Below, in pieces: positions 2,949-54,835 of a stretch of 64,000 nt of DNA. The translations under genes were made by a program, and so were the position numbers. The notes beneath the pieces are model-generated. The model made no database searches and was not told the origin of the DNA. It saw only the letters and a list, made by a program, of their open reading frames with translations. Source of the stretch: Desarmillaria ectypa (lineage: Eukaryota; Basidiomycota; Agaricomycetes; Agaricales; Physalacriaceae); the NCBI GenBank assembly GCA_030407005.1, contig JAUDYN010000008.1:2604001-2668000 (forward strand), given 5' to 3'. How positions within the stretch are numbered: the stretch's first letter is position 1; each line of letters begins with the position of its first letter.

Positions 2949-3580
2949 GCCTACTAGCGTAAAGACTTGAATATTGATCGATGATCACTCAAGTATCGTC
3001 GTGAGAGCTGTACAATAATAAGTAGTGCACATCTGAAGTTTCAAGTTGTACAAAGTCATGGTACTATAAAGTACATCGATGGCTTGGTAGCAACGGCGCA
3101 GAAAATATTGACTGTTTCCTTTCTAGAGACCACTTGCCAGTGTGACTGCTACTACTACGATCCTTGATGATGTCATAGTTTCTCGTTTCCTCACCCGTTC
3201 GTTTATGCAAATTTCGCCAACCAGACTTCTTGCAAGTAAGAGAGTGAGACGACGGCTCCCCTTTTGCATGAAATATTCTTATGCTCATCAAGGTAGATAC
3301 TTTTTCGGAACGTAGGAATGAAAAGGTGCTCCACTTTGAGGCTGGCCATCATTGCAGGTTCTATCCAGGACGATTTTCTGCCAACTTTTCGAAGAATTAA
3401 ATGGAGAGGATTAGACGCTAAAAGTTGCACCGCATGATGTTGAATACTTCATTAGGAAGAAAAAATCGTAAATTCGGTATACATACTAACACAGATAGGA
3501 AATGAAGCACTCGACAAGAAACGATCCATTAAACGTAAGTTGCACCTTTTGACCGAAAGATGCGTATGAGCACTCGACAA

Positions 3581-4968
3581 TCACATCGCATCGCCAGCCT
3601 TTCTTTCCAGTCCAAGTTCGACAAGCTCAGGCTTCTTCGCGGCCCTTCCGACCAATACCTCAGCATTTCCTGATGATCGCAGAATCAGTCTATCCGCTCG
3701 TGTGTGCAACATAATAAGACCGACTCACCTCGAAGTTTATCTTTCAGCCCCAGCTTGCTGCCCGGATGATAACCGATACTGGCGCCATAACCACCATAAT
3801 CGCTACCACCACTACCAGAGACAGGACGATGAGAGCTAGTACGATTGTTCACAAAAGTCTGAGTATCATCACGTCCACCACCATATCCTACAGCGTCAGG
3901 AGGCTGACCAGATCCGGAAATAGGCGTACGAGACGGGATAGAACTATCACCTCTCCTGGAACCTGAATCTTGCTCAGTGGTGTCGGAGGTCGTGTCATGG
4001 CCCCGCTGATTATCATCACCCGAAGACTGATACTTGCCGGGAGAGGGCCAATCATCGAAAGACGAGGAGCTATTTCTGTCCACATTTGCCCTCGGCGCCT
4101 TGGGGTTACTGTTGGCGACGTGTCGGCCCTGTTCATCGTCGTGAAGAGCTGAGGAACCATGCTGAATGGATAAAGGCCGACCGTCCGAGGAGGCAGTGCG
4201 CGAATCACGATCTAAATCTGTAGCGTCGTAGGGTGACCTGCCGTAGTCGTTGGTGTCTGTTCTTTCCTCAGTGTCGTTACAACTAGCGCTGGTGTTTCTA
4301 CATTGAGTTTGATTTAACGTTAACAATAGATAGTGAAGGCCTTTGATGCTTACCTATGTTCTCTAAACCGACAGCAGTACCGAGATTGCGGTCTGCACTA
4401 CCTGTATCGTATTGTTCGCGACAAGTGGCGTGGTCGAGAATGACTTTCATAGCGGACTTCTTAGAGGTGATCAACTGAACTTGGATGGCGTTGCGAGAAA
4501 AATCGTAGACGTCCGCAATGCCGCGACAATGATATCCGGTCAGAGACGTATTCTCATCACGCACTCCGACATCCTCCGAAACATGGCTGACAACGTCAGA
4601 AAAACCCTCCTCTTGCTTGTCATGCAGATTGAACGTATATCCGGCTGTCAACAGGAACTGTCCAATGGCATGAAAGTACTTGTGCTCAACATAAACATCG
4701 AGCTCAGAGTCCGGATACCTGATGTACTCAAAGAACTGTACACCACTCGATCCGGAGATCAGGCGCCAAAGTCGGCTTGGAGAAGGCGGAATTTGTTTGC
4801 TTCCTCTTCCGTAAAGTAGAAGGAGAGTAGCTTCTTAGCTTGGATGGCAAAATAGAATTCCGCTGCTGCATTTTTGGCCTCGTCGGTCTGGCCAACGCAC
4901 ACGAGGTCCAGAGGGGAAAGCAATGGGAATATGTGATTTTTAAGGAACTCGAAGGTTCTGAAAGACAT
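3581..4968 (-). pseudogene. Chimera: nucleotidyltransferase-like 5' half fused to CsbD-like Ser/Gly/Asp-rich 3' half (left arm)
   Basis: The Met at 4968 opens an N-terminal part with the pattern ISGSSGVQFF followed by PDSELDVYV. This fits the GS...D-x-E/D layout of nucleotidyltransferase-fold proteins that are common and uncharacterised in agarics (inference). The frame between FGA and LISGSS is shifted by one base in both arms, without splice sites, so the copy is broken. At about 4438 the frame passes directly into YDTGSADRNLG, which belongs to the Ser/Gly/Asp-rich gene also found at 9657-11149. The tail ends in GLKDKLRGNAEVLVGRATKK, a CsbD-like motif, reached through an intron near 3660-3730. 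An intron-like 56 nt segment near 4297-4352 has one extra base compared with the right arm, which breaks read-through. Transcription is possible but a normal product is unlikely. Confidence 0.6.
4181..4438 (-). repeat. Internal direct repeat in block E, 3' copy
   Basis: This segment matches 9662-10264 in the same orientation. The match starts at the Cys-Arg just before YDTGSAD and ends after TAS-S/L-D. The other copy carries about 345 bp more, with extra exons, so this copy has an internal deletion. The two copies bracket the nuclease gene and the nucleotidyltransferase half, and mark where one CsbD-like gene appears to have been split. Confidence 0.7.
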
Positions 4969-5486
4969 TTAGCATTGTCTCAAGGCGAGTCAGAAAATTA
5001 ACACACACACACATTATTCAGGTATGGTCGCATACTCGTTGGAAGTGTAAAATATGAGTGCCCTCATCCAGAATGTATTCAATACATACGTGTCCATCTC
5101 CACGTCAAAATAGTATCGAAAACGCTAGAACAGCATGAGTACAATTTAAGTGTAATAGAACGGTAGAATGCGTAGGATATGTCTTTTAATTTTTTCAGAG
5201 AGTGCCACTATGTGTAAGAAACGGGAGAGTAAAATTTCATAATCACGTCACGGCGTCGACTCACGGTCGCGTATCGACTTGGGCACGTGGTTGCAATGAA
5301 TCGGCAAACTCGGCAATTATAGTTGACTAGTACGGCCAGCAACTTATCACGCTGTTAGCTTGGACGTTCGGGCCGTCCGCCAGTAGGCATACCCTACATC
5401 AATGTAAGCATTAGCCACACTGCTTTTCAAGCGATCCTTATGACCGTTTCTCAGTGATACTCTCTCCAACTTGAAGCTTCACTGGC

Positions 5487-8400
5487 ATGCCCCCAGCAGC
5501 TGTCAAATTGCACTATGTTGCCTCTGAATCGGATTGGCCTGTAGAAGTTCGCCAGATTTCTTGTCTGCTCTCAAAGCCTGTTTCTCGTTCTGTGTTTTCC
5601 GGAACGTATCCTCGAATGACATCCTTGTACTCTGACCTCTTCGATGAACTGGAGAGCGCCACATTACCCGGCCTTTCTGTCGTGGAACAAGACTCGCAGC
5701 CGATTCTTGGTTTCTTGGATATTATACTGGAGACGGTATCCTCGCTTCGACGGATGCAACAAGACCCTCACCCTTTCACTATGCCTATTTGGTCAACGCT
5801 AGTCCGAGCATTGTGCTATTCCTGCTATAACGACGTTGAGATATTGTGAGTGGCGCCATATATGATGATACCTATGTTTCTTACCCGTGCAATTTAGTAC
5901 CGACACCCCTTTTATTCTTCCTAGGAACTTTGTAGAATCCGTTTGCGATGGACATGCATTGACGCTTATTTCTTTTCTCTACAAGAACGCACCACTATCT
6001 ACATCACACTCGGATGTGGATCCAGTTGACAGCAATGATTCTAACCAATGCCCTTCGGAATCAAGCGCAGTGCTCGCAGACGAAGAAGGCTCGGATCCTG
6101 TCAGTGACAGCCAACGCGATGCTCAGACATTTTCATCCGAGTCAGACGATGTATGTGAAGGCGACATATTCGCCGAGTTCGATCCTCCCACGGAATCGGA
6201 AGAGTGGCCACGTCGCTATTTTTCATCTCCACCATCGAAGGCTTCCAGTCATAGCTCGCTCGATATGTCGTTTCACGCGCACATCCTTCCAGGTAGAGGT
6301 CGTCGTATCGATGCCGTTCTACCTATTATCTGCATCGCAGATAGGGAGAACATAGTGCCTCTCATTGGTAGTGTGGCCTACCAAAGACGCGTTTGGGGGA
6401 TAGAAGATCCCGTCGTAGGTATCATTATCCCCAGGAATGGGTTTTCAGCACAGGTTATTTTGGGATGGACAGATCGACCTGATTTGAGTAGCAATACAGA
6501 GTCACCGGATGATCACACGGTTGATGACTTGGTGAGTCACTATTTGACCGTTTGTTCATCCTTAGGCTCATTAAGTAGTAGCCTATAGTGCACATCGCGT
6601 ACTCAGACATACCGTGTGTGGCCAATGGTGTTTTCAATCTGACGGATCCCATCTCGGCCATTGCATTTTCGCAATTTATTGTCGATCTCCGTGATCAATA
6701 TGATAAGGTTGTACTGGAGTGTTGTGATACTCGGGTGTCTGCCAATACGTCTCTTTCGTGGAGATCGGATCTTATCGATCGCCCAATGCCTTCTGATTGG
6801 GAGGGAAAGGGAGAGGAATCTGTCGCCTCCTGGATTCGGAGTGTAAGAACAGCGAGCAGTGCCGAGTGCGTGGACGCAATAGGCTGACTTTGAATATACT
6901 CGTCTAATATCTGATAGAACCGACGACGACCCATCACCATACCCTATTACACCCCCTCCGACCCAGCGATTCCACCACATACCAATGTCTGATCGAAACG
7001 AATCACGCAAGAAACTTGTTCGAGGAGAACAGTCGTGCGTATATATAACCTTCTTACTCATTGCGAATGATTGATCTGTCGCCCGGGACAAATGCAGTGT
7101 TACTTCTGAAGCCGTGAAAGCGACACAGAGCAAAAAAGATCAACCTGGGTCCCGGAAAGGCTCAGGTACGACATCTACGTGAGTTTGGGCGCTTGGTAGT
7201 AATAAGATCGGTGCTAACCTCTTGGTGTAGAAGTTCAGCTCCGAAGTAAGTAGATCATCTGAAGTTACGTCGCTGCTGCAGTCAACAAATGAATGATAGG
7301 TCTCAAGTTTCGGGATTGAATGCCTCGTCATTGTATGTCTCATCCCTCGAAGCCGTAGATAGCTGACAAACGGTGCATATACAGAAATTCCGCGTAACGA
7401 TGTTTTCCCTGCCGATTTAGTACGTTCTGACGATGTGCATAGATTGCAGTCGGGTTCAAGCGGGATCTTATCCTGCTCAAGGTCAGTTATCACTTCAGGG
7501 ATTTCGTTTCTATCGCTGACTTTGATTGGACCAGATTCGCTAACAAAGCAGAAAACGGAATTGACGCGGCAAAATCACTCTCCATCACCACTTATACCTA
7601 CGACAGATATATCTTCTCCGTGTGCGTTGCGCTATTACCGAACCTCGACAAATTCAAGAACCAACAACACATCAATGAGTACGTCCGGATATATGAATCT
7701 TTGACGTGTTTCGTGGACCCTGGATGGCAGAGTATGGTACGTGCGAATATCCACTCTGACCATTCAACTATAAACGATTTCCTCAGAGCGAGTTACCAAT
7801 AGTGGAAGGATCCTATCTTGAAGCCATCAAGGCGTGCTTCTGGGACCAACTCGTGACTATTCGAGAGAGACGGCGAGAAAACCCCCTTCGATCAATAGAC
7901 GACTCACATCAGCAAGCGATCTCTGAACGTCTATCACTATTGTTCTGGGCAACCCTCGGAGCTTTTTCACGTGGTCAGCGCAAGTCTGTCAATGAAGCAG
8001 AATCCCGTCTACAATGGGATATGCTATTGTTCCATGTTTTGAACAGCATTGATTCCACCGGTATTCATGTGAGACCATTGTAAGTTGTTTCTTCTTTAAC
8101 ACGTCAGAACGTCCGACGTAAGGATTTTATAGATTTGAGCGAACTATTTTGCTTTCTCGGAACCGCCTCGTGGACGAACTTCTTACGAAGAACGTCAAGG
8201 ATGTCCGCGCTAGTGCGATAGACCGATCAGAGGACTACTATAATCTCTGTTTGGCTTCTCAACTCGCCGACGTCTTTCCAGCCAATAGCACGGCAGCAAA
8301 CATAATCAGATCACGGGAACTCTCAGCTCTAATGGTTGCGAACTATCTGTTACAGCAGACACCTCGTCTTTTCCAAGCGACAGCAATCAGAGCCATTCAT

Positions 8401-9477
8401 CGTCGTGCCAGTAGCGAACCACACACCGGAACGTGTGATGCAGTTGTCGTTCTTACCACTGATGCACTCTTGTTGCCTACTACCGACTGCAAGATACCTA
8501 AATTCATCACTGTACCGCATGATGGTAGTCGGGGGCTATTTCCTCCACCGCATGATGATGATGATGATGATGATGTGCTGCTTCCTTCCTCTCAGCCAGC
8601 GGCCACCCTGCTACCCCGTTTACCCCGTTTAGACGAGGAGCAGCCTGCCTATTCCTCAGAAACTACGATTGAACCTGTCACTCTCAATGATTTCAAGGCG
8701 GCATGGAAATCCTCGCGCAACTCATTTTTAACTGGGTTCTCTGAGACCGGTCATGTTGTGGATGAGAATGGGATGCTTTGCACAGACATTCGACAGCTGT
8801 GTGATAGGATCGCCAATGCTGTACCTGCAGAACTCTTTGGGAAAACTCTCTTCGCCATCCTTGTTGTTGAGCATAAGAAACCACTTGATGATGCAGCTAA
8901 GGCGTTGAACCAGGCAAGAGCTTATGTAGAGGCTGCCGTCAGGCTGCTGCAAGCTCATGGAATAACTGGACTGCCCGTGTTTGCGCTTGCTACAAATGGC
9001 AACCATGGTGTGGTGTTAATGGCATGGCATAGTGAAACCACTGAGGTATGCTTATCCTATCTCCTTTGAGGCTGCAGTTTTGATTACTTTGTACAGAAAG
9101 TCTACCTTATTGACCGATCAGTGCAACGATTTAATATATCATCACCCATAGAAGTTTTCCATTTTGCAATGTTTCTTCTTCGCCTCAGAGATTATTATAT
9201 GAATTATTTTCAGGAGCATCCAGACCAGATCAAAGCAGCAAACAAAGCAGCACGAGAGATGGCAATAAAGGCAGAGAGGAAGTTGGAAGAGGCCAAGGAG
9301 CGGGCAAGCAAGGAAGGCTTGGATCCAGATAAAGCTGAGGTCCATATAAACTGGGGATGGTGGAAATCTTCTCAGATGAGGCGGCCTTCACGACCTAAAG
9401 AGTTGAGCAAGGAAGAGGTGAACTCCAAGTTGGAGAAAGTGGACCAGGATCTAGGAAGCTTACACTTGTCATCTTAG
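5487..9477 (+). CDS. Large multi-exon protein with C-terminal PD-(D/E)XK nuclease-like domain (left arm copy)
   Basis: Start MPPAAVKLHYVAS at 5487. Clear exons are 5487-5845, 5898-6531 and one from 6582, then several small ones between about 6900 and 7480, then about 7534-7735, 7788-8080, 8134-9044 and 9097-9477. The donor near 6843 was not resolved because phases do not close with any conserved GT. The product is about 1,100 residues. The last third has Asp in GTCDAVVVL (8437), E-H-K in LVVEHKKP (8869-8877), Q-x3-Y in QARAY (8911) and the strand LPVFALATNGNHG. That order of strand, ExK strand, QxxxY helix and strand is the restriction-endonuclease-like fold. An acidic Asp run and Pro-rich linkers separate domains, and the tail is a Lys/Glu-rich coiled-coil-like helix. 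Function is unknown; DNA cleavage is inferred from motifs only. Every long exon is open in this copy. Confidence 0.75.
8551..8576 (+). repeat. GAT trinucleotide run coding for poly-Asp
   Basis: A run of GAT codons encodes seven consecutive Asp after PPPH in the nuclease-like protein. The right arm has the same site interrupted (E, D, D, N, D, D), so this is one of the few places where the two arms differ by coding changes. Confidence 0.8.
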
Positions 9478-9656
9478 ATATACTTCATGTCATACACAAT
9501 CCATTGGATTGTTTCAGATTTCCATTTGCTAGTGTCTGAAATGTTCACATAAAATCTCTTACTTGTAAATAAATACTAGAACTGCATAGCATGGCCCAAC
9601 TGGACACATGGACATAGATAATTATATTCACATTTGTACAACAAATACTAATCATG

Positions 9657-11149
9657 CTAATGACTGTCCAAGGAGGCAGTCCACGAATAACGACCTATAT
9701 CTGTGGCGTTGTAGGGTGACCTCCCATAGTCGTTGGTGTCTGTTCTCTCCTCGGTGTCGTTACAACTACTGCTAATGCTTCTACCTTTGGGACCGCTGCT
9801 CCGATAGGTGCTGTTGTCTGCACCAGGAGCACTTTGAAGGAAATGAGTCCACGAAAGCACAATAAGGCAATAAGTACACAAGAAGACATACCGCTTGTCG
9901 TAGAAGCGATCATACCTGGATCATTGGCTCCAGCGAATTCTGTACTTTCTTCGCTTTTACTGCCAACGTCGCCTGAAAACCATGAGATTTTGGAATACAA
10001 ATGGCGGTAGCACTCACGAGTCGTAGCTTTCTCAGAGACGCCAGCAAGTGCACTCCTCCTTGACTCGTCATAGCTTCTTACATTCTTGCTATCGCCAGTA
10101 TGATAGCTCGTAGATCGTACGCCAGACGATACTGCTACATTGGGTTAGATCAACACTAACGATAGATAGTGAAAAACTTTGATGCTTACCTATGCTCTCT
10201 AAACCGACAGCAGTACCGAGACTGCGGTCTGCACTACCCGTATCATATTTATCGCGAGAAGTGGAGGGGTCGCCAGCTGAAAGCATACAATTAACCCCGT
10301 GAAATATCACTTGAATCTTGAAACCAACCTGCGGAGCTGTCGGTACCAAATGAGCTTGGAGAGTCGCCAGCATAACCTATACAAAATGATTTAAAATCAT
10401 GATAGATATCAACCGTGGACTTACCTGAAGATTCGTCGCACACCGAATTCTCGCGCGCCCAGCCAGAGGACCCAGAGTCATACCCATTGCTGATAGGTTG
10501 GCCAATATCACCAGCTCCAAAGTCGTCATTACCCGTATCTGGGACGCTGTTAGCTTGGTTAGAACGAGACTATTTATTTACTCACTACTACCCCCGGCAC
10601 CATGACTTCGCAGCTCGACTGAGCGACCAACACCTTGATCATGACCTTCGTATTCATCGCTGTTGCGACTCGACGTGATATCGCGACTACTTGAATCTTA
10701 TAGAATGACGAAAAGCACGAATACATTGCGCATAGATAGAGTGTAATTACCGCTCTCGGACTCGTCGTCGCCGCCGCCGTCGGGCACATAATTATCGTAT
10801 CTAATGGACCCAGTATTCATGTAAGAATCTTCGCCGGTGTAACCTGGTCATTATAATAAACGAGAGGACGTAAGCTGAGAGCTGGAAACTTGCTGGTAGA
10901 TGCACCCGAAGGTTCAGAGCCCATTCTTGCCCCTTCATTGAATCTGCCACGGGAGTTATGGGAATAAGAGGTGGTGTCATCATCTGTATCAACATCCGAA
11001 ATATTATTTGCTTGAGCGGGAAGTAACAGAAGCGTTTATGCACCGCAATTCTGCGATTGGACATCCGTCTTTCTTGAGGTATGATTGCATTCTGCAGCAC
11101 GAGAATTATACTCATTGTTGCGACGAGGATTAGATTGGTCGTAAGACAT
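9657..11149 (-). CDS. Ser/Gly/Asp-rich protein, 5' part of a split CsbD-like gene (left arm)
   Basis: Starts MSYDQSNPRRNNEYNS at 11149. Short exons spliced by typical introns (for example GTAAGTCCAC...TTTGTATAG near 10375-10425) give a disordered chain rich in Ser, Gly, Asp and Tyr, with segments such as YDTGSADRSLGTAVG and TDTNDYGRSPYNATD. It stops at LDSH just where its relative at 3581-4438 continues into a CsbD-like C-terminus, so this copy lacks that tail. The last intron acceptor is changed relative to the right arm, which moves the final exon out of frame unless another acceptor is used. It is probably a truncated, decaying gene. CsbD-like proteins are small stress-associated proteins; no function can be assigned here. 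Confidence 0.5.
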
Positions 11150-11625
11150 TGATTGTTAGAGAGCAGTGGAAGGCTTTCTCCCGATAGTGATCTGGGGATT
11201 TATAGTAGTCTTAACCATGACGGTGGTGAGCGCATCGTTGTCTCCATGACGTCAACTGAGACTGGAGGCAGGCGAAGTTGGCGATGATGGGGAGCAAAAT
11301 GCGCACGTGGTCAGATTCCAACAGAAATAACTTTTCCTCTTCTTACCATATCCTCAATGTGGAGATCCTTCGATATGCGAATATCCATTGGAAGGTTGAG
11401 AAATTTCAACCCTAAAATGGTCCGCGTAAGAACCAAGAACGGTACGCCTGAATTTAAGTATAGGTCTATAGCGCGACCTTTGCAGCTCGTCCTTCCATAT
11501 ATATACTCAAATGAATACCACGAAGAAAAGTGCATTAACCATTAACACGCGTGAATAATATTTAGGGTATCAAAATGTGATCATAGCATAGTAGAGCAGT
11601 TATGGCGAAGAAAAAAACGGTGGAA

Positions 11626-12933
11626 TCAGCAAGAAAAATTAGCTGCAAACTGACAGGCCAGGATCTTCCGGGAGCACACAGTAGGGAGCATCCTCTCCAC
11701 GTCCTTCATTGCAGTGACAGAGTACTCCCTCGGGTATTTCCATCTCCCTTTGACATCATCATACACGTCCAACTTGACGTGAACTTTCGTCAAAGATCGC
11801 ATCTGCCCAAGAACCGCGTCGAGCGCAGCCCACTCTGCCGTATAGGCAGTCCAATCAGAGTTGTAGAATATCTCAAAAGTGACTTCCTCCACACGATGCT
11901 TGGCGAGTTCCTGGAACGACTCTATCAACCAGCGAAGCCATAATGTGGGCTCAGTATGCTGATCACAGCGGATCCACCATAGCTTTATCTGAATGGAGAG
12001 GAGCTGCTTGACGTCAATGAAGTTGGATAGCGGTTCTGCGAGTATGGCGCTTCAGCAGACAATGAAGGAATTCGATAGTCGAGACTTACCTCCTAGACAC
12101 ACGTTCAAAACGAGGTGCTGGAGCGAATTACTGTTCAACTTAAGTATCTCCTTCGTTGCCTCAATACGCTCTGACAAGTGTCCAGAGCCAGCAGTGAGCA
12201 CGGACAGACGATGGAGATGACTGAGATCCATAGAGGGCTGGAGCTGTAGCAAACGGTGCATGAGCTGGAGGTACGACTGTTCATACAGACTCAACGCAAG
12301 CGAATCAAGCTGCAGATTGAGCCTGCATGGTAAAGTGACCGCAGCGTCGGCCTGGACGAACTCTTCGAGGTCATCACAGGACATGGCGGAGAGTGAAAGC
12401 CGCTTGAGATGCTCACATGCACCGAGGAGAGCCAGGAAATCAGCACACCGGAGGAAGAGGCCCTCTCGGAGTTCGAGGTTGGTTATCCGTGGGGAACGGA
12501 TAGTAGTGATGAGGGCATCCCTCATGCATTGGGAAAGCTCGTCCCAGTAGTAGCCCCCCAGATCGAGGGATATACATTCCAAGTTGACGAGCTTTTGGAG
12601 AGTGCAGGCGAGGAGTTGTTCTTGCGCCGCGTCAAGGATAGGCTCAACCTCAAGTGTCCTGACGAACGATGCTAAATGGGGGCGCGTTGATATGAGGTTG
12701 TGGAATTGGTTGATCTCGCAGGAAGTCCTGTATGATTTTCCGGGGTAACAACATTGTGAATGGTTGCGGAAATGGATCCGAGAGAAAATGTGCCGCTGAG
12801 AAGAATAGGTCCATGGACGAGCTACAAGGGAGCAGGCGCGTAGGGCAGCCTGGTCGTCCTGATTCTCATCGATGATAGCATCTATGAGCTCCTGGGGGAG
12901 GGAATTGATTCCGATCCGGTCATCTACTTGCAT
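11626..12933 (-). CDS. F-box protein of the agaric LRR-like type
   Basis: Two exons, 12090-12933 and 11626-12035, are joined by a 54 nt intron (GTAAGT...CTCGCAG) that preserves phase, giving 417 residues. I use the ATG at 12933; the longer frame has no upstream ATG. The N-terminus has the F-box pattern (INSLPQELIDAIIDE then ACSLVARPW). It is followed by leucine-patterned segments (TLEVEPIL, ITNLELREG, LKRLSLSAM, LDSLALSLY) typical of mushroom F-box proteins, which are thought to recruit targets to SCF ubiquitin ligases. No stop or shift is seen, so this copy looks intact. Its last 32 codons recur at 2359-2456 as a relic. Confidence 0.85.
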
Positions 12934-13940
12934 GATCGACAACTGTACTTGGCAACAAATACAAAATCAGAAGTCCACTCTGGTCAACTGATGCAAACAT
13001 GACGCACAAAGGGGCTATAGATTCGGTCCGGATATCCGAGTTAGGAATGTCGAGTTGTGGTAGTACAAGTTCGCGGCTGGGTGGGTGCGGGAAGATTGGG
13101 GATGGTAGAGAATGTCGCACTGATGGGAGCAACGTTGGGGAGAGAAGAGAAGGGTAAAAAGCACTATAACCCAAGATGAAAATTTATCTTCCGTGCCACG
13201 CAATATTTGTACCTTGCTTTCACAGCGGGTTTCCCCCGTCTTCTTCCGAGGGCCGGTCCGGCTCGGCCTAGATCGCGACTACGCACCCTTGTTGTGCTAC
13301 CATCTTTGCCTTGCACCCTCCATCGAGCCCATCAGGTTAATAACCAACAGGCCAGAGTCCAAAAACGTAAGTCCAGAGGGTGATTATCGATAGAAGCATG
13401 CACGTTTGTCCTGTCCCTAGCTGTCCAAGGTCGTCCTTCTTTACTCTACCCCGGTAAATCAGAACTCGTGGGCTGAACAACCGTATGATCTGCCATCCCG
13501 CTGTCCCCTCGGACGTGCAATGAACGTTAAATGCATGTAGTTCTTGCGGACAGGATCACGAAAGACGACAATCACAGGTGGGTCATGAGGTCAACCTGGA
13601 CCTCCTTTGAAGGACAAACAGCGACCGAGTCGGAATGGAAACGGTAGGTTCTCGCAGTTCGCGATTTTCCATGGAGTGAGCCGGGGTAACCGTTCTTGAT
13701 GGCGACAAAATCGAAGCAAAGCACTGCACGTGAACAAAAAGCTATTCACTCAAATGACCTCGCATTCATCCCCCGCCATCTAGCCGAATGGTCAACTATC
13801 TCCCGCATGTTCCAGGCTTAACACACCACTATTGCAATGTCATGAACTCGATTCAGCATGTTTTTCACTGCACCGGGAAACTTGTACCTGTTGAGAGTAC
13901 GCCACCCCCGGTTGCTTCCAGATCGTATGCGGGTGCCATT
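12934..13940. other. Intergenic, no supported gene
   Basis: Between the divergent-looking F-box start and the 3' end of the GNAT relic there are only short overlapping frames. The sequence next to the F-box start presumably holds its promoter, but I see no clear TATA box. Confidence 0.5.
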
Positions 13941-14500
13941 CTACAACTCATCCAAGGATCTCGACATCCAAACAACATCTCGTTTCCCATCTGGTTCCTT
14001 GACTTTGCATCTCTCGATCAATCCTAGCTTTCTGTACAGCACCCGGCCCTCATTGGCGATGAACTTCTCTGTCAGGGTATCGACTCCGTGATATCTGGCC
14101 CATTCAATGCATCTGTCAAGCATCCTCTTGGCAAGCCCACGTCGTCTATGTTCCGGATGAACCCACAACGACACAAAAAGGTATCCACTTCCCTTCCCCC
14201 CTCGTACACGATCTTCGGTAGCGTATAGTCCAACTCGGCGAGGATTTTGGGAGATGCCACGCCTGACACGGCGATTCATTCTCCCGTGGCCTTGTGCGAG
14301 ACGATGACCATAACCTGGTCATGAGAGGCGATTCGCTGGACATGCTTCTCTCGAGGGAAATTCTTGGCGTCTTCATAGGTGGTTTGAAAGGACGAGAGGT
14401 CTACCTGTAGTGTAAGTAAGCGGATGGCGATGAATTTGTCGATTCCATCCTCTGACAGCGGGACGTTGAGGGTGAAGGTTTCGTATGCATCATCTGTCAT
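13941..14500 (-). pseudogene. GNAT-family N-acetyltransferase, broken by a stop and a frameshift
   Basis: It begins MTDDAYETFTLNVPLSEDG at 14500. After SHKATGE an in-frame TGA occurs where the family would continue (probably Trp before IAVSGVASPKIL). About 70 nt later a run of G shifts the frame. The third frame then shows the acetyl-CoA binding pattern LWVHPEHRRRGLAKRML (V..eyrrrGlg..L) and the family's end VLYRKLGLIERCKV. The homology covers the full length, so this was a complete gene that has been inactivated. There are no splice sites that would remove either lesion. Sequencing error cannot be excluded for the poly-G shift. Confidence 0.8.
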
Positions 14501-15541
14501 TGTCTGAAGGGGTTAGCTACTTATTTCCCCATGCAATAGATGTAACGTTCTTATCGGTCGAGTTATTGGATTAGTGGGTCACGATGAATACCCGCACACT
14601 ACTATTTTGCGCGATGAGTGTTGCCACATCTGAACAACGTAAGAGTGCTCGCCCGACACCTATTGGAGCTGCATCGGGCCGCCGTTGTTGACGAACATAC
14701 GTATCTATGACGCGATCTGACCATCATGCGCAGATCCCCTGCCTGCAAACGAGTATAAAGGCTGCCTCCTTTGTTCCATCCTCTCTTCGCATATTTCCCT
14801 CCTTCGCCCGTCTCTCTCTCATCCCACGAACGTACCCGCTGCCGGTGGACCATTGTATCCCAAAGTGATGCATTAGACTGTGTGTAGGTCCATCGTGTTG
14901 GATTATCCCGCTGTCTCCGCTCGGCCTATGGATGATGCACCACTTACAGCACCCCTCCATCCCTCTCGTGTCCATTGCCGCAAACTCTTGGTCAAGACAT
15001 TCCCCAGAACCGCGCCTGGTAGACAATGAGCCTACTAGCGTAAAGACTTGAATATTGATCGATGATCACTCAAGTATCGTCGTGAGAGCTGTACAATAAT
15101 AAGTAGTGCACATCTGAAGTTTCAAGTTGTACAAAGTCATGGTACTATAAAGTACATCGATGGCTTGGTAGCAACGGCGCAGAAAATATTGACTGTTTCC
15201 TTTCTAGAGACCACTTGCCAGTGTGACTGCTACTACTACGATCCTTGATGATGTCATAGTTTCTCGTTTCCTCACCCGTTCGTTTATGCAAATTTCGCCA
15301 ACCAGACTTTGTGCAAGTAAGAGAGTGAGACAACGGCTCCCCTTTTGTATGAAATATTCTTATGCTCATCAAGGTAGATACTTTTTCGGAACGTAGGAAT
15401 GAAAAGGTGCTCCACTTTGAGGCTGGCCATCATTGCAGGTTCTATCCAGGACGATTTTCTGCCAACTTTTCGAAGAATTAAATGGAGAGGATTAGACGCT
15501 AAAAGTTGCACCGCATGATGTTGAATACTTCATCGGGAAGG

Positions 15542-21164: not shown

Positions 21165-21917
21165 TCGCCTCGGATTGGGCGTTGTGTTGTCGTAATGTAG
21201 ATGATCTACACAACTTGAGCACTGCGCTGCGGTGGACACATGCCGCGTGTTCTTGTGGCTATTGGCGTGGCCTACTGCAGGAAATATATGGTTATCAGCT
21301 TCACGACGTCCCGTGGAACACGCTCACCGGTCTTTCATCGCCAAGACACAGCTTCAATGGAGCTTCAATGGCAGAGATGAATCAATGTGTCAAGCTCGTA
21401 ACTAAGTATCAAGAGTAGATACGTCTGCGCCGGTGCTGCTAGTACAGGTCTCATTTTGGGCAGGTGAATGCTTTGTGCCGGTCAAAAGGTCACGTCAAGG
21501 AAAACAGCCGGAATAAAGATGAAATTTCGACAATTTTTGACACACCAACAACTGTCAGGTTTGCCGTAATACCGACGGACTTCATCTTTGTAACGTCTCC
21601 GATTTTTTCCTAGCGTAGCTGCGATCCCAAATCCTTCAAGTTAAAATGCAGGTACGGCATCTGTGTTGGCAATATTTTGGTATGTAGCGATACAATAAAA
21701 TCAATGCACCCCAGAAAAATAAATATTGTCCTCCCAGCCGTCAAATTTCAAAGGATACATCCTGAGAACAAGAAACAAACAAAGCGAGAAATGAAGAGCA
21801 CAGCTTTTCGCCAGGAGCAACAAAAAAAGTATTGTTCTCATTACGTAAATTCTGATCTCAGGTGCCCTCACGCAGGCCTCTTCTCCTTTCCAGTATTCTC
21901 TCTTTCCACCTCTGTCC
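21165..21917. other. Intergenic, no supported gene
   Basis: Holds the TIF34 3' region and the upstream region of the secreted-protein gene. No coding pattern or RNA gene recognised. Confidence 0.5.
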
Positions 21918-23105: not shown

Positions 23106-25356
23106 GTCTATATTTCAATCTTGACATCCGTCAGGAAGATCTCATATATAACAGGAACGCCGGATGGAGAACGCGGCCAGAAACATGGCTGCTTCTAGTG
23201 ACTGTCTCCTTCATCTCCTCATTCTGTCTATGACAACCCCCTTGTCTTTCGCTGGCGGGCCCGAGAAGGCTCTCGACCTTTACGTATCTTTATGACCAAT
23301 CACTCCACCCCCTCTCCCTTACTCCTCACACCTACCCATGGCACGCATATAGACAATTGGAGATCTCACTGCGAAAAATATGGACGCTACGTACATGTTA
23401 TATCCACACCGTTGCACCTTATATTTACCAACACTTACTTAGTCTCAAGGGAAAGAGATTTAATGTTCATACCCCTTCACAGTTTGCGCTTCAATGCCTT
23501 GGACTGGATCTTACGACATGCGATAGCCTTTATTGGAACTCAGCAGTGATGGTCATCTCTTTCACACAATACAGTACCCATCGTCGTTGTCTACTGTAAC
23601 CGTGACGACTTGGTGCGAAAAGCAGGGTATTTTCGGCCGCAGGTTTTCTTCCATCATAGACGTGCGGCAACTTAACAAGAACAGCAGGACCCTCGCGTCC
23701 ACGGCACCTTGCCCCGCCTCTGAAGTGCTACGTCCGTGTTCTATGACTCGAAGACTCTCCTAGTATAGATGCCAAAGTTCAACCATTCAGGCTGTTAATC
23801 ACCGCGGCTTCGAGGCTATATATCTCATCAAGGTCGCAGAAGTCATCAGCAGTGGCTCCGTATTTCGCGGCGTTTTTGTCATGATTTCCTTCGGTCATGA
23901 CTCATTTGCCGCTGTTGGGGACAAGTCAAGTTGGGGAGAACGTGCATGTCCTCTGGTCCCAGTCCTCGACATGTGTCGCGTCTGTAATACCAGGAGTATA
24001 AATGCAAGACCACCCAATGGTCCCTACTACTACCCCGTCTTGCCTTTACATCAATTCTCATCTCTCAGCCAGCACAGAGTCTGGACCTACCAGGTTGGTT
24101 GTTATTGACACTGTCGCACTTACAGTTACCTCTTGCTCTATCATCTTCAGTCCTTCTCGTATCGCTGCCATGTCTCTCGAATCGACGACCTGAGGCAAGC
24201 TACACAAAAAGATTCATGCAAGCCAGTCTGAATAAACTTCCAGGATATGGCACAAAACAATCTCCGAAGTTAGGGTACCTTCGATTCCTTGGTTCGTAGC
24301 GGGTCATGCAATACTCCCCGCACTTTCGTTTTGTTTATGTCTCATAAGCTCTGTCCGTCGGAAGGTGGCTTGGCGCGTTTTCTTGCCCATGTCAACTCGG
24401 GCGGGTGGTCCGTCTCTAGACTCTCTACCTGTCCTAAGCTCCGTTTCAAGCTCCCGGCCCGCCATGGTGTCCAAGCAGTGGCTACAAGGCCCAGAACTCT
24501 GAATTTTTCATACTAATGCTTCAGCTCCGTGACATAGAACTTTATTTGCTATAGGCAGAGCCACTCTTGATAGTTACTAGAGCGACTAATCAGTCCAAAA
24601 GCAGTTTCCTACCATTCCGCGAAATAATTCTCTAGGAAGGAAAGAATCGCTCTGTCTTTTATATATTTCCACTTGATGTCTAGTGTCGATTCCTATTGAA
24701 ATGTCGGCTTACGAAACCGCCTTCGCCCCTTCATCTTCTGCTCTCTGTGGGTTTCTAGTTGTTGCCGGGGACCGATGGCTATGATGAGATATTCTCTGTC
24801 TGGCAGCATCCGTAATGTTGCGATTCTTTGGCCATTAAAATTATTGGCTACTTCATCCGTAACACTGAGTGTCTTTTATGTGATGAATCTCGTGAAAGTT
24901 TTTGACAGTCCAGGACTCCAGGATGGAATGGACACAGCACTTCAAGTTATTCCATACACTTGATACACTGGCCGTGCGGGGTTTGTTCTGTTCATCCTGA
25001 CCTTCTCCATACAGCCGGCGTAATGCATCGCTCTAGATTTTGCCCCAATGTAGGACCTAATGGGAGCTCCGTGTTAAATTCGGTTTACAATAGTTCAGAG
25101 TCTTGAGAGGAAATGCTCTGCATCTTTGGAACTTTGTAGGCTTCTGTCTGTACTGGCCGCGGCGCGGCTTAATATCGATGCCGCATTTATGCCGTCTGAT
25201 CTCACCAAGCTCTCATTTCAGGCATACATAAAACGAACAATTAAATTTGTTGAGTGTGGAATGCGTAAACTCGAGTCAGAAGGGCAGCGTCGGTTAAGCC
25301 GATATAATTGCCGCGGCAACACTAACCCTACCCCCGTATCTGGCACAGCCATCCTC
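23106..25356. other. 2.2 kb without a supported gene
   Basis: Between the secreted-protein gene and the right E arm. Frames are short, overlapping and without signal peptides, motifs or splice-consistent partners. It may contain old degraded sequence, but I cannot name any. Confidence 0.5.
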
Positions 25357-25494
25357 ACCATCACCAACTTCGCCTGCCTCCAGTCTCAGTTGACGTCATG
25401 GAGACAACGATGCGCTCACCACCGTCATGGTTAAGACTACTATAAATCCCCAGATCACTATCGGGAGAAAGCCTTCCACTGCTCTCTAACAATC

Positions 25495-26987
25495 AATGTC
25501 TTACGACCAATCTAATCCTCGTCGCAACAATGAGTATAATTCTCGTACTGCAGAATGCAATCATACCTCAAGAAAGACGGATGTCCAATCGCAGAATTGC
25601 GGTGCGTAAACGCTTCTGTTATTTCGCGCTCAAGCAAATAATATTTCGGATGTTGATACAGATGATGAAACCACCTCTTATTTCCATAACTCCCGTGGCA
25701 GATTCAATGAAGGGGCAAGAATGGGCTCTGAACCTTCGGGTGCATCTACCAGCAAGTTTCCAGCTCTCAGCTTACGTCCTCTCGTTTATTATAATGACCA
25801 GGTTACACCGGCGAAGATTCTTACATGAATACTGGGCCCATTAGATACGATAATTATGTGCCCGACGGCGGCGGCGACGACGAGTCCGAGAGCGGTAATT
25901 ACACTCTATCTATGCGCAATGTATTCGTGCTTTTCGTCATTCTATAAGATTCAAGTAGTCGCGATATCACGTCGAGTCGCAACAGCGATGAATACGAAGG
26001 TCATGATCAAGGTGTTGGTCGCTCAGTCGAGCTGCGAAGTCATGGTGCCGGGGGTAGTAGTGAGTAAATAAATAGTCTCGTTCTAACCAAGCTAACAGCG
26101 TCCCAGATACGGGTAATGACGACTTTGGAGCTGGTGATATTGGCCAACCTATCAGCAATGGGTATGACTCTGGGTCCTCTGGCTGGGCGCGCGAGAATTC
26201 GGTGTGCGACGAATCTTCAGGTAAGTCCACGGTTGATATCTATCATGATTTTAAATCATTTTGTATAGGTTATGCTGGCGACTCTCCAAGCTCATTTGGT
26301 ACCGACAGCTCCGCAGGTTGGTTTCAGGATTTAAGTGATATTTCACGGGGTTAACTGTATGCTTTCAGCTGGCGACCCCTCCACTTCTCGCGATAAATAT
26401 GATACGGGTAGTGCAGACCACAGTCTCGGTACTGCTGTCGGTTTAGAGAGCATAGGTAAGCATCAAAGTTTTTCACTATCTATCGTTAGTGTTGATCTAA
26501 CTCAATGTATCAGTATCATCTGGCGTACGATCTACGAGCTATCATACTGGCGATAGCAAGAATGTAAGAAGCTATGACGAGTCAAGGAGGAGTGCACTTG
26601 CTGGCGTTTCTGAGGAAGCTACGACTCGTGAGTGCTACCGCCATTCGTATTACAAAACATTATGGTTTGCAGGCGACGTTGGCAGTAAAAGCGAAGAAAG
26701 TACAGAATTCACTGGAGCCAATGATCCAGGTATGATCGCTTCTACGACAAGCGGTATGTCTTCTTGTGTACTTATTGCCTTATTGCGCTCTCGTGGGCTC
26801 ATTTCCTTGAAGGCGCTCCTGGTGCAGACAACACACCTATCGGAGCAGCGGTCCTAAAGGCAGAAGCACTGGCACTAGTTGTAATGACACAGAGGAGAAA
26901 AAAGACACCAACAACTATGGGAGGTCACCCTACGACACCACAGATGTAGGTCGTGATTTGTGGACTACCTCCTTGGACAGTCATTAG
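25495..26987 (+). CDS. Ser/Gly/Asp-rich protein, truncated CsbD-like gene (right arm)
   Basis: Mirror of 9657-11149, starting MSYDQSNPRRNNEYNS. The exon chain is conserved. An acceptor ending TTGAAG near 26814 keeps the frame into GAPGADN, but a one-base loss shortly after (AACACACC against AACAGCACC) shifts the last exon, giving a different C-terminus (ending HPTTPQM). Thus each arm carries its own lesion near the 3' end. Either could still be transcribed; neither encodes the CsbD-like tail. Confidence 0.45.
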
Positions 26988-27166
26988 TGTGATTAGTATT
27001 TGTTCTACAAATGTGAATATAATTGTCTATGTCCATGTGTCCAGTTGGGCCATGCTATGCAGTTCTAGTATTTATCTACAAGTAAGAGATTTCATGTGAA
27101 CATTTCAGACACTAGCAAAGGGAAATCTGAAACAATTCAATGGATTGTGCATGACATGAAGTATAT

Positions 27167-30100
27167 CTAAGATGACAAGTGTAAGCTTTCTAGATCCTGG
27201 GCCACTTTCTCCAACTTGGAGTTCACCTCTTCCTTGCTCAACTCTTTAGATCGTGAAGGCCGCCTCATCTGAGAAGATTTCCACCATCCCCAGTTTATAT
27301 GGACCTCAGCTTTATCTGGGTCCAAGCCTTCCTTCCTTGCCCGCTCCTTGGCCTCTTCCAACTTCCTCTCTGCCTTTATTGCCATCTCTCGTGCTGCTTT
27401 GTTTGCTGCTTTGATCTGGTCTGGATGCTCCTGAAAGTAATTCATATAATAATCTCTGAGGCGAAGAAGAAACATTGCAAAATGAAAAACTTCTATGGGT
27501 GATGATATATTAAATCGTTGCACTGATCGGTCAATAAGGTAGACTTTCTGTACAAAGTAATCAAAACTGCAGCCTCAAAGGAGATAGGATAAGCATACCT
27601 CAGTGGTTTCACTATGCCATGCCATTAACACCACACCATGGTTGCCATTTGTAGCAAGCGCAAACACGGGCAGTCCAGTTATTCCATGAGCTTGCAGCAG
27701 CCTGACGGCAGCCTCTACATAAGCTCTTGCCTGGTTCAACGCCTTAGCTGCATCATCAAGTGGTTTCTTATGCTCAACAACAAGGATGGCGAAGAGAGTT
27801 TTCCCAAAGAGTTCTGCAGGTACAGCATTGGCGATCCTATCACACAGCTGTCGAATGTCTGTGCAAAGCATCCCATTCTCATCCACAACATGACCGGTCT
27901 CAGAGAACCCAGTTAAAAATGAGTTGCGCGAGGATTTCCAGGCCGCCTTGAAATCATTGAGAGTGACAGGTTCAATCATAGTTTCTGAGGAATAGGCAGG
28001 CTGCTCCTCGTCTAAACGGGGTAAACGGGGTAGCAGGGTGGCCGCTGGCTGAGAGGAAGGAAGCAGCACATCATCATTATCATCATCCTCATGCGGTGGA
28101 GGAAATAGCCCCCGACTACCATCATGCGGTACAGTGATGAATTTAGGTATCTTGCAGTCGGTAGTAGGCAACAAGAGTGCATCAGTGGTAAGAACGACAA
28201 CTGCATCACACGTTCCGGTGTGCGGTTCGCTGCTGGCACGACGATGAATGGCTCTGATTGCCGTTTGTTGGAAGAGACGAGGTGTCTGCTGTAACAGATA
28301 GTTGGCAACCATTAGAGCTGAGAGTTCCTGTGATCTGATTATGTTTGGTGCCGTGCTATTGGCTCCAATGACTACGGCAATATGAGAAGCTGAACAGAGA
28401 TTGTAGTAGTCCTCTGATCGGTCTATCGCACTAGCGCGGACATCCTTGACGTTCTTCGTAAGAAGTTCGTCCACGAGGCGGTTCCGAGAAAGCAAAATAG
28501 TTCGCTCAAATCTATAAAATCCTTACGTCGGACGTTCTGACGTGTTAAAGAAGAAACAACTTACAATGGTCTCACATGAATACCGGTGGAATCAATGCTG
28601 TTCAAAACATGGAACAATAACATATTCCATTGTAGACGGGATTCTGCTTCATTGACAGACTTGCGCTGACCACGTGAAAAAGCTCCGAGGGTTGCCCAGA
28701 ACAATAGTGATAGACGTTCAGAGATCGCTTGCTGATGTGAGTCGTCTATTGATCGAAGGGGGTTTTCTCGCGGTCTCTCTCGAATAGTCACGAGTTGGTC
28801 CCAGAAGCACGCCTTGATGGCTTCAAGATAGGATCCTTCCACTATTGGTAACTCGCTCTGAGGAAATCGTTTATAGTTGAATGGTCAGAGTGGATATTCG
28901 CACGTACCATACTCTGCCATCCAGGGTCCACGAAACACGTCAAAGATTCATATATCCGGACGTACTCATTGATGTGTTGTTGGTTCTTGAATTTGTCGAG
29001 GTTCGGTAATAGCGCAACGCACACGGAGAAGATATATCTGTCGTAGGTATAAGTGGTGATGGAGAGTGATTTTGCCGCGTCAATTCCGTTTTCTGCTTTG
29101 TTAGCGAATCTGGTCCAATCAAAGTCAGCGATAGAAACGAAATCCCTGAAGTGATAACTGACCTTGAGCAGGATAAGATCCCGCTTGAACCCGACTGCAA
29201 TCTATGCACATCGTCAGAACGTACTAAATCGGCAGGGAAAACATCGTTACGCGGAATTTCTGTATATGCACCGTTTGTCAGCTATCTACGGCTTCGAGGG
29301 ATGAGACATACAATGACGAGGCATTCAATCCCGAAACTTGAGACCTATCATTCATTTGTTGACTGCAGCAGCGACGTAACTTCAGATGATCTACTTACTT
29401 CGGAGCTGAACTTCTACACCAAGAGGTTAGCACCGATCTTATTACTACCAAGCGCCCAAACTCACGTAGATGTCGTACCTGAGCCTTTCCGGGACCCAGG
29501 TTGATCTTTTTTGCTCTGTGTCGCTTTCACGGCTTCAGAAGTAACACTGCATTTGTCCCGGGCGACAGATCAATCATTCGCAATGAGTAAGAAGGTTATA
29601 TATACGCACGACTGTTCTCCTCGAACAAGTTTCTTGCGTGATTCGTTTCGATCAGACATTGGTATGTGGTAGAATCGCTGGGTCGGAGGGGGTGTAATAG
29701 GGTATGGTGATGGGTCGTCGTCGGTTCTATCAGATATTAGACGAGTATATTCAAAGTCAGCCTATTGCGTCCACGCACTCGGCACTGCTCGCTGTTCTTA
29801 CACTCCGAATCCAGGAGGCGACAGATTCCTCTCCCTTTCCCTCCCAATCAGAAGGCACTGGGCGATCGATAAGATCCGATCTCCACGAAAAAGATGTATT
29901 GGCAGACACCCGAGTATCACAACACTCCAGTACAACCTTATCATATTGATCACGGAGATCGACAATAAATTGCGAAAATGCAATGGCCGAGATGGGATCC
30001 GTCAGATTGAACACACCATTGGCCACACACGGGATGTCTGAGTACGCGATGTGCACTATAGGCTACTACTTAATGAGCCTAAGGATGAACAAACGGTCAA

Positions 30101-31157
30101 ATAGTGACTCACCAAGTCATCAACCGTGTGATCATCCGGTGACTCTGTATTGCTACTCAAATCAGGTCGATCTGTCCATCCCAAAATAACCTGTGCTGAA
30201 AACCCATTCCTGGGGATAATGATACCTACGACGGGATCTTCTATCCCCCAAACGCGTCTTTGGTAGGCCACACTACCAATGAGAGGCACTATGTTCTCCC
30301 TATCTGCGATGCAGATAATAGGTAGAACGGCATCGATACGACGACCTCTACCTGGAAGGATGTGCGCGTGAAACGACATATCGAGCGAGCTATGACTGGA
30401 AGCCTTCGATGGTGGAGATGAAAAATAGCGACGTGGCCACTCTTCCGATTCCGTGGGGGGATCGAACTCGGCGAATATGTCGCCTTCACATACATCGTCT
30501 GACTCGGATGAAAATGTCTGAGCATCGCGTTGGCTGTCACTGACAGGATCCGAGCCTTCTTCGTCTGCGAGCACTGCCCTTGATTCTGAAGGGCATTGGT
30601 TAGAATCATTGCTGTCGACTAGATCCACATCCGAGTGTGATGTAGATAGTGGTGCGTTCTTGTAGAGAAAAGAAATAAGCGTCAATGCATGTCCATCGCA
30701 AACGGATTCTACAAAGTTCCTAGGAAGAATAAAAGGGGTGTCGGTACTAAATTGCACGGGTAAGAAACATAGGTATCATCATATATGGCGCCACTCACAA
30801 TATCTCAACGTCGTTATAGCAGGAATAGCACAATGCTCGGACTAGCGTTGACCAAATAGGCATAGTGAAAGGGTGGGGGTCTTGTTGCATCCGTCGAAGC
30901 GAGGACACCGTCTCCAGTATAATATCCAAGAAACCAAGAATCGGCTGCGAGTCTTGTTCCACGACAGAAAGGCCGGGTAATGTGGCGCTCTCCAGTTCAT
31001 CGAAGAGGTCAGAGTACAAGGATGTCATTCGAGGATACGTTCCGGAAAACACAGAACGAGAAACAGGCTTTGAGAGCAGACAAGAAATCTGGCGAACTTC
31101 TTTAGGCCAATCCGATTCAGAGGCAACATAGTGCAATTTGACAGCTGCTGGGGGCAT
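27167..31157 (-). CDS. Large multi-exon protein with C-terminal PD-(D/E)XK nuclease-like domain (right arm copy)
   Basis: Mirror of 5487-9477 with the same start and stop. All long exons are open and the presumed catalytic residues (Asp in GTCDAVVVL, E-H-K, QARAY) are unchanged. Amino-acid differences include Val to Lys near residue 19, Pro to Leu and Ser to Arg in the acidic linker, a changed poly-Asp run and a cluster of about ten residues after YYNLC (SASHIAVVIGANSTAPN against LASQLADVFPANSTAAN). Two open copies with conserved motif residues argue for recent duplication or recent activity, not passive decay. Function remains unknown. Confidence 0.75.
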
Positions 31158-31675
31158 GCCAGTGAAGCTTCAAGTTGGAGAGAGTATCACTGAGAAACGG
31201 TCATAAGGATCGCTTGAAAAGCAGTGTGGCTAATGCTTACATTGATATAGGGTATGCCTACTGGCGGACGGCCCGAACGTCCAAGCTAACAGCGTGATAA
31301 GTTGCTGGCCGTACTAGTCAACTATAATTGCCGAGATTGCCGATTCATTGCAACCACGTGCCCAAGTTGATACGCGACCGTGAGTCGACGCCGTGACGTG
31401 ATTATGAAATTTTACTCTCCCGTTTCTTACACATAGTGGCACTCTCTGAAAAAATTAAAAGACATATCCTACGCATTCTACCGTTCTATTACACTTAAAT
31501 TGTACTCATGCTGTTCTAGCGTTTTCGATACTATTTTGACGTGGAGATGGACACGTATGTATTGAATACATTCTGGATGAGGGCACTCATATTTTACACT
31601 TCCAACGAGTATGCGACCATACCTGAATAATGTGTGTGTGTGTTAATTTTCTGACTCGCCTTGAGACAATGCTAA

Positions 31676-33059
31676 ATGTCTTTCAGAACCTTCGAGTTCC
31701 TTAAAAATCACATATTCCCATTGCTTTCCCCTCTGGACCTCGTGTGCGTTGGCCAGACCGACGAGGCCAAAAATGCAGCAGCGTAATTCTATTTTGCCAT
31801 CCAAGCTAAGAAGCTACTCTCCTTCTACTTTACGGAAGAGGAAGCAAACAAATTCCGCCTTCTCCAAGCCGACTTTGGCGCCTGATCTCCGGATCGAGTG
31901 GTGTACAGTTCTTTGAGTACATCAGGTATCCGGACTCTGAGCTCGATGTTTATGTTGAGCACAAGTACTTTCATGCCATTGGACAGTTCCTGTTGACAGC
32001 CGGATATACGTTCAATCTGCATGACAAACAAGAGGAGGGTTTTTCTGACGTTGTCAGCCATGTTTCGGAGGATGTCGGAGTGCGTGATGAGAATACGTCT
32101 CTGACCGGATATCATTGTCGCGGCATTGCGGACGTCTACGATTTTTCTCGCAACGCCATCCAAGTTCAGTTGATCACCTCTAAGAAGTCCGCTATGAAAG
32201 TCATTCTCAACCACGCCACTTGTCGCGAACAATACGATACAGGTAGTGCAGACCGCAATCTCGGTACTGCTGTCGGTTTAGAGAAGATAGGTAAGCATCA
32301 AAGGCCTTCACTATCTATTGTTCATGTTAATCAAACTCAATGTAGAAACACCAGCGCTAGTTGTAACGACACTGAGGAAAGAACAGACACCAACGACTAC
32401 GGCAGGTCACCCTACGACGCTACAGATTTAGATCGTGATTCGCGCACTGCCTCCTCGGACGGTCGGCCTTTATCCATTCAGCATGGTTCCTCAGTTCTTC
32501 ACGACGATCAACAAGGTCGAGACGTCACCAGTGACCCCAAGTCGCCGAGGGTAAATGTGGACAGAAATAGCTCCTTGTCTTTCGATGATTGGCCATCTCC
32601 TGGCAAGGAGCAGTCTTCGGGTGATGATAATCGGCGGGGCCATGACACGACCTCCGACACCACTGAGCAAGATTCAGGTTCCAGGAGAGGTGATAGTTCT
32701 ACCCCATCTCGTACGCCTATTTCGGGAGCTGGTCAGCCTCCTGACACTATAGGATATGGTGGTGGACGTGATGATACTCAGACTTTTGTGAACAATCGTA
32801 CTAGCTCTCATGGTCCTGTCTATGGTAGTGGTGGTAGCGATTATGGTGGTTATGGCGCCAGTATCGGTTATCATCCGGGCAGCAAGCTGGGGCTGAAAGA
32901 TAAACTTCGAGGTGAGTCGGTCTTATTATATTGCACACACGAGCGGATAGACTGATTCTGCGATCATCAGGAAATGCTGAGGTATTGGTCGGAAGGGCCA
33001 CGAAGAAGCCTGAGCTGGTCGAACGTGGACTGGAAAGAAAGGCTGGCAATGCGATGTGA
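31676..33059 (+). pseudogene. Chimeric nucleotidyltransferase/CsbD-like gene (right arm)
   Basis: Mirror of 3581-4968. It shares the one-base frame break before LISGSSG and adds its own early stop: GAA in the left arm is TAA here (at about 31783), after KNAAA. From LISGSSG to the CsbD-like tail, however, one long frame of about 320 codons is open, because the intron-like segment near 32291-32345 is 55 nt here and can be read through into NTSASCNDTEERTD. The frame then runs to DKLRG, and after a final intron the tail reads NAEVLVGRATKK up to the stop at 33059. Full-length product is not expected. Confidence 0.6.
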
Positions 33060-33445
33060 TTGTCGAGTGCTCATACGCATCTTTCGGTCAAAAGGTGCAA
33101 CTTACGTTTAATGGGTCGTTTCTCGTTGCGTGCTTCATTTCCTATCTGTGTTAGTATGCATACCGAATTTACGATTTTTTCCACCTATGTACAGCCATTA
33201 GCAGAGATCAACGCTGGTTGAACTAAACTGGAATAGCAGTTATGTCTGCTTCGATTCCTCAACACGGGCTCTCAAAGTCTGACTTCGACGCAGCTCTATA
33301 TGTGGCGACACAATTCTTCCATTCCCAGTTATCTTGGGCATAGACGGCCTAGGCGTCAGGTCGTTCACGCTCTTGTTTCCCGAAATTGGTCTGATTGACC
33401 ACCCCCCTGTAGGATAAAGACACGAGAAGCCTACAACGTTCCACA

Positions 33446-34622: not shown

Positions 34623-34632
34623 TCCGTTTGAT

Positions 34633-35742: not shown

Positions 35743-35749
35743 TATAAAA
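35743..35749 (+). promoter_or_regulatory. TATA box of the CYP53-like gene
   Basis: TATAAAA lies 38 nt upstream of the ATG at 35781, inside CGTATAAAAGG. It is well placed for a short 5' leader. Confidence 0.6.
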
Positions 35750-54767: not shown

Positions 54768-54835
54768 CGTTCTCACCTTTTAATCCTGCACGTCCACGTC
54801 CACGTTCACCAGTCATCCAACATACGTTCGTCGAA

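Follow-up and report, generated by a model that had tools for sequence, protein, structure and literature searches.

How does a long, gene-bearing inverted repeat come to stand in the genome of a mushroom, with one of its two arms lying between copies of the same flanking DNA? We considered this question in Desarmillaria ectypa, described in a passage of PMC6313743 as a bog-dwelling saprotroph of the Armillaria group, using a stretch of 64,000 nucleotides (C31:2604001-2668000, contig JAUDYN010000008.1; hereafter the window, to which coordinates refer unless a contig is named) from a genome of 40,588,909 bases in 32 contigs. An earlier note on this DNA had described an inverted repeat with almost no indels at 3459-11288 and 25357-33180, and had proposed comparing the window with itself and counting the arm across the genome. 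The self-comparison (BLASTN) recovered the pair: 3453-11293 on the plus strand aligns with 33187-25352 on the minus strand over 7841 columns at 98.01% identity, with 151 mismatches and only five gap bases in three openings (4110-4112, 4313 and 9811), and the ends given before were off by no more than about 7 bases. Chance cannot account for a match of such length (7.8 kb) and identity (98%). The arms are separated by a loop of 14,058 bases that carries its own genes. Searching the whole genome with the arm gave at least 13 matches, namely both arms and 11 partial ones, every one on C31; two full-length copies were found, both in the window (these counts are lower bounds). The neighbours of the two arms are dissimilar over the outer 3.0 kb and the inner 4.2 kb or so that were compared. 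Scans of the window for tRNAs, tandem repeats and Rfam families found nothing, and no report of such a structure was found in the open-access literature searched.

The left arm is bracketed on both sides by one host flank. In direct orientation, 2013-2455 matches 11283-11722 at 95.9% identity and 2454-3459 matches 14538-15540 at 96.8% (self-BLASTN), and such long flank copies lie around the left arm only, not around the right. Because a minus-strand open frame (12051-11629) spans the left edge of the 2.8 kb segment by which the two copies differ (Table 1), and a GNAT acetyltransferase frame (13944-14318, minus strand) lies inside it, loss from the left-hand copy is likelier than gain in the right-hand one. 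At both junctions of the left arm the joined ends share imperfect homology of about 4-11 bases, and segments of the neighbourhood stand rejoined in altered orientation and copy number, in the order flank - inverted arm - flank, with the other arm 14 kb off. Neither these direct repeats nor a perfect 8-base direct repeat, ACAGCCAT, around the right arm had been mentioned in the earlier note.

We tentatively read the left arm as an insertional inverted segmental duplication, made during replication-based repair by two template switches in the manner of microhomology-mediated break-induced replication (MMBIR) or fork stalling and template switching (FoSTeS), an account to which we give somewhat less than an even chance. 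Copying would have run rightward through the flank as far as about 3459, and there, where a few bases match imperfectly, crossed to the opposite strand at the right arm's outer end (33187). It would then have proceeded backwards over 7.84 kb to 25352 and, by way of a second imperfect match, returned to where the flank begins (about 2013) and passed through it again. The right arm would be the source, and a single event would yield flank - inverted arm - flank; later, the left flank copy would have lost 2.8 kb, and the arms would have undergone gene conversion with each other.

Table 1. Features of the window and differences between the arms, by stretch (stretches delimited after inspecting the data).
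Feature	Position	Strand	Remark
Left arm of inverted repeat	3453..11293	+	98.01% identical to 33187-25352; nested between two flank copies; derived copy in the proposed reading
Right arm	25352..33187	-	source of left arm in the proposed reading; possibly itself an older insertion
Flank copy A	2013..3459	+	direct repeat left of left arm; lacks 2.8 kb held by copy B
Flank copy B	11283..15540	+	direct repeat right of left arm; 2.8 kb extra relative to copy A
2.8 kb unique to flank copy B	11723..14537	.	probably deleted from copy A
Junction 1	3453..3459	.	flank end and arm end, imperfect match: TAGGAAG at junction, TCGGGAAG in flank B, TAGGTGG in right arm
Junction 2	11283..11293	.	arm end and flank start, imperfect match of about 10 bases: GATGATGGGGA at junction, GATGGTGAGGA in right arm, GATGATGGGACGGA in upstream flank
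8-base direct repeat ACAGCCAT, inner end of right arm	25345..25352	.
8-base direct repeat ACAGCCAT, outer end of right arm	33191..33198	.	3 bases beyond end of homology
Gene 1, left arm	5475..6884	+	exons within 5475-5846, 5869-6585, 6582-6884, ends approximate; relative in Suillus
Gene 2, left arm	7443..9474	+	exons within 7443-7799, 7760-8080, 8122-9066, 9070-9474
Gene 1, right arm	29760..31169	-
Gene 2, right arm	27170..29201	-
Longest identical run between arms	6974..7871	+	898 bases
Inverted pair	47660..56402	-	partner C31:2779293-2787603, about 119 kb away, with another copy of the gene pair
Arm differences	3453-4148		35/696 (5.0%)
Arm differences	4149-5474		9/1326 (0.7%)
Arm differences	gene 1		14/1410 (1.0%)
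Arm differences	6885-7529		1/645 (0.2%)
Arm differences	7530-8240		3/711 (0.4%)
Arm differences, stretch of gene 2	8241-8421	+	21/181 (11.6%)
Arm differences	8422-9474		11/1053 (1.0%)
Arm differences	9475-10143		43/669 (6.4%)
Arm differences	10144-11281		11/1138 (1.0%)

Mosaic divergence between the arms

Differences between the arms are unevenly spread. Counted per 100 bases, they have a variance-to-mean ratio of 4.03, against a maximum of 1.58 in 10,000 random placements, and the longest identical run (898 bases) exceeds the largest obtained in random placements (675). The contrast persists in presumed non-coding DNA, where 17 of 2933 sites differ in the low stretches and 78 of 1365 in the high ones (Fisher P = 1.7e-24, for stretches chosen post hoc), and coding constraint is therefore not the cause of the mosaic. 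Near-identical stretches thus stand beside diverged ones to an extent beyond coding constraint, as seen in one genome, and we infer gene conversion between the arms as the simplest cause. The earlier view of the repeat as recent holds for part of the arm only, divergence by stretch ranging from 0.2% to 12%. The arms differ by 5.0 and 6.4% in two of their three most diverged stretches, which, with flank copies 95.9-96.8% identical, is compatible with one age. The changed codons at 8241-8421 comprise nine replacement and six synonymous changes, and make no case for positive selection. A paralogue at C31:2590683 was considered as the origin of this stretch and was not supported: over 24 differences it agrees with the left arm at 8, with the right at 13 and with neither at 3.

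Origin of the left arm

The template-switch reading is supported by flank copies at the left arm only, by the dissimilar neighbours, by the matches at the junctions, by the finding of two full copies, and by the other inverted pairs met in the genome (see below). Several points weigh against it, however. The data come from a single genome, with no outgroup displaying the state before the event. The junction matches are short and imperfect, so that other joining routes fit them too. The stretch 8241-8421 might derive from another paralogue, and the 44 differences in the genes that were polarised by two other paralogues were no help for polarity: the change fell in the right arm at 20 and in the left at 12, with 12 ambiguous. 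Finally, two template switches leave the ACAGCCAT repeat around the right arm, whose edges lie at most 3 bases from the ends of homology, unexplained. At least 8 bases were shared by 0.16% of random pairs of places in the window, and by 0.07% with the edges equally close (278/400,000); six arms were tested for flanking repeats, of which the other five share 3-5 bases, and the chance is then about 0.5-1%. The repeat resembles a target-site duplication, a hint that the right arm, too, may have been inserted.

The main rival in mechanism builds on this resemblance. The arm would be a discrete inserted or mobile unit, whose right copy carries an 8-base target-site duplication and whose left copy arose by aberrant transposition that duplicated the flank, as in reversed-ends transposition of maize Ac. 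The nearness of ACAGCCAT to both right-arm ends, the position of the left arm exactly between direct duplications and the nuclease-like pattern in gene 2 (see below) would all fit, and there is a precedent, since reversed-ends transposition of Ac gives tandem direct duplications and composite insertions (PMC4270019, PMC3744419), and passages of PMC4270019 describe products in which the element lies between direct duplications, with 8-base target-site duplications. Unlike with Ac, however, neither Ac-like terminal inverted repeats nor a transposase were found in the arm, and the 8-base repeat is present at one arm only; the longest stretch shared as a short direct duplication around the left arm is 3 bases. 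The first 60 positions of the left arm, compared with the reverse complement of its last 80 bases, contain no exact terminal inverted repeat of at least 8 bases, and the right-arm unit's terminal 40 bases at one end do not resemble those at the other. Among 15 open frames of the left arm, no Pfam family, whether of transposases, reverse transcriptases, recombinases or any other kind, was detected at E 0.1, in a search that weak families could escape and in which introns split the genes. Dispersed copies, as expected of a DNA transposon, were not seen: the two full copies found, a lower bound, both lie in the window. The right-arm site, when rejoined without the arm, reveals no interrupted gene (one frame of 100 amino acids crosses it, compared with 78 in a control join), and in the stretches read of two further inverted pairs, on C32 and C30, the gene pair is absent. 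A classical transposon was rejected on the ends, the gene content and the copy number, in agreement with the earlier statement that no known transposase, terminal inverted repeat or reverse transcriptase was present; the ACAGCCAT repeat keeps a discrete unit open, which we regard as unlikely. The earlier hint at a mobile or driving element is weak, given two full copies, the lack of a terminal inverted repeat and the other inverted pairs, two of them without the gene pair in the stretches read; that repeat speaks for an inserted unit. In its boldest form, the 7.84 kb arm would be a new kind of mobile unit without terminal inverted repeats, with two genes (one PD-(D/E)XK-like), an 8-base target-site duplication at one copy and a duplicated flank at the other, and it would spread inside a single chromosome region; this seems very improbable.

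The same structure could have been built in two or more separate events: the flank would have been duplicated in tandem, and an inverted arm copy would later have entered at the duplication junction, either through end joining or because a linear or circular copy integrated there. Direct repeats around an insert can arise in this way, and the flank pieces, at 95.9-96.8%, can be set against an arm mean of 98.0%; the insert must, however, have hit the duplication junction exactly, whereas one series of template switches covers both, and we consider separate events rather unlikely. An assembly artefact, in which two haplotypes or two similar loci were misjoined, draws some plausibility from identities of 98% between arms and 96-97% between flanks, a range possible for alleles, and from the diploid secondary mycelium that part of PMC6313743 describes in the group. 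Yet the window contains no N, joins at about 10 bases of similarity are unlike those made by assemblers, and the loop has its own genes. Moreover, 11294-25351, 33188-47659 and 56403-64000 have, flank copies aside, no further copy that exceeds 100 bases with more than 89% identity; since the loop and the right-hand parts of the window lack such a copy, second haplotypes do not appear to have been kept, and an artefact is improbable. A chromosomal inversion with staggered breaks, leaving inverted copies of the breakpoint segments on either side of the loop, yields inverted repeats around a unique loop, as observed. It cannot yield direct repeats around the left arm alone, and was rejected because these are left unaccounted for; we give it hardly any credence.

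Genes of the arms

Each arm carries one clear predicted unit of two genes, which is backed by paralogues and homologues. The paralogues at 48.8-53.1 kb of the window and at C31:2781.8-2786.1 kb show a single two-gene unit. The earlier count of the same three genes per arm is thus poorly supported: homologues back two, and in none of the frames of the outer stretches (3700-4350 and 9480-10150) are synonymous differences between the arms in clear excess, so that these stretches were not retained as real genes. Gene 1 has five database relatives, including one in Suillus lakei, and its alignment has 37 invariant columns in nine sequences, four of them from the D. ectypa genome. Gene 2 has three database relatives, including those in Guyanagaster (76% over 31% of the query) and Armillaria mellea (39% over 84%), and 11 matches in the D. 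ectypa genome besides itself, the right arm counted. A contig of 159693 bases holds a relative of gene 1, and a contig of the same length one of gene 2; the gene pair is therefore probably linked in another genome.

Members of the PD-(D/E)XK superfamily have a D, followed by E-x-K on the next core strand and by a helix with a Q. A D...E-x-K...Q pattern is present in a 15-row alignment of gene 2, with the D in 14 of 14 rows that have letters there and the E, K and Q each in 13 of 13. By eye, the gene 2 product may be PD-(D/E)XK-like, with a putative nuclease pattern and a merely possible nuclease fold: the protein had no convincing Pfam match, and its AlphaFold model had a mean predicted local distance difference test (pLDDT) of 43.8, a quality that does not allow fold comparison. 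Among solved structures, 27 distinct sequences were matched, with TAL effectors at the top, with E 0.0006 over about 32 residues, which we judged a chance match. The C-terminal stretches of genes 1 and 2 look alike by eye, and BLASTP pairs short pieces of them (E 2e-4 and 1e-3). A relationship between the two genes was dropped, the profile comparison giving a probability of 0.34%.

Two side observations concern the gene pair and its surroundings. Window positions 6219-6997 and 51464-52243 match over 780 bases at 88.8%, the paralogues being otherwise about 66-78% identical in DNA, which looks like gene conversion between older paralogues. Within each arm, the gene pair is flanked by direct repeats of about 126 and 139 bases with 85-86% identity (4179-4436 and 9662-10272).

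Other inverted pairs and known systems

Three further inverted pairs were met while following similar sequences, not by census. On C32, 1547477-1558881 pairs with 1562532-1573880 as inverted arms of 11.4 kb at 99.08% identity around a loop of 3.65 kb; these arms, which are larger and less diverged than the 7.8 kb pair of the window, bear fungal-kinase and aldo/keto reductase frames, the kinase gene being related to one in the window's loop. Weak similarity (about 61-65%) extends beyond the C32 arms, where an older pair may have been made alike. The second pair joins 47660-56402 to a partner on the same contig (Table 1) through broken matches of 86.5-98.0% over about 8 kb, the longest of 6253 columns at 95.3%; the partner lacks parts of a glycerol-3-phosphate dehydrogenase gene. 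The third, of 2.1 kb at 95.97% (C30:882946-885029 with 915296-913222), turned up in a set of numerous partial relatives of the window's P450-bearing part. In the C32 and C30 stretches read, nothing related to the gene pair was found at E 1e-4, and an inverted pair can therefore arise without it.

Rozen et al. reportedly described, in 2003, gene-converting palindromes of mammalian sex chromosomes. The D. ectypa repeat resembles such palindromes (PMC3308322) in its long gene-bearing inverted arms, its loop and its near-identical stretches. It differs from them in that conversion would affect part of the arm only, as judged from one genome. Origin-dependent inverted repeat amplification (ODIRA) yields inverted triplications. 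Like our reading of the left arm, it makes inverted copies through template switching at replication forks, according to passages of PMC10766183 and PMC11790251; unlike in ODIRA, a third full arm was not found in our search of the genome. The human PLP1 rearrangements of the duplication-inverted triplication-duplication type (DUP-TRP/INV-DUP), and related complex ones at that locus, are also similar, since the parts of PMC4352052 and PMC6902434 cited here describe an inverted copy within a direct duplication and junctions with microhomology or microhomeology (the latter at about 32% of PLP1 join-points in PMC6902434), and invoke template switching. In those cases, however, the duplicated segment recurs a third time as the inverted part and the rearrangements have newly arisen, whereas in D. 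ectypa, a fungus, the inverted copy comes from 14 kb away and is old enough to have accumulated 2% differences.

As read from its sequence, the locus holds a genuine rearrangement that belongs to a known kind and is preserved in an unusually readable form. Because of the ACAGCCAT repeat at the right arm, there is a small chance that an unknown element was involved. In the window, an inverted insertional duplication of a mushroom can be followed base by base, its two junctions and the duplicated flank having been preserved. If a census confirms further pairs, D. ectypa would be a convenient species for studying how inverted duplications originate and how conversion keeps them alike.

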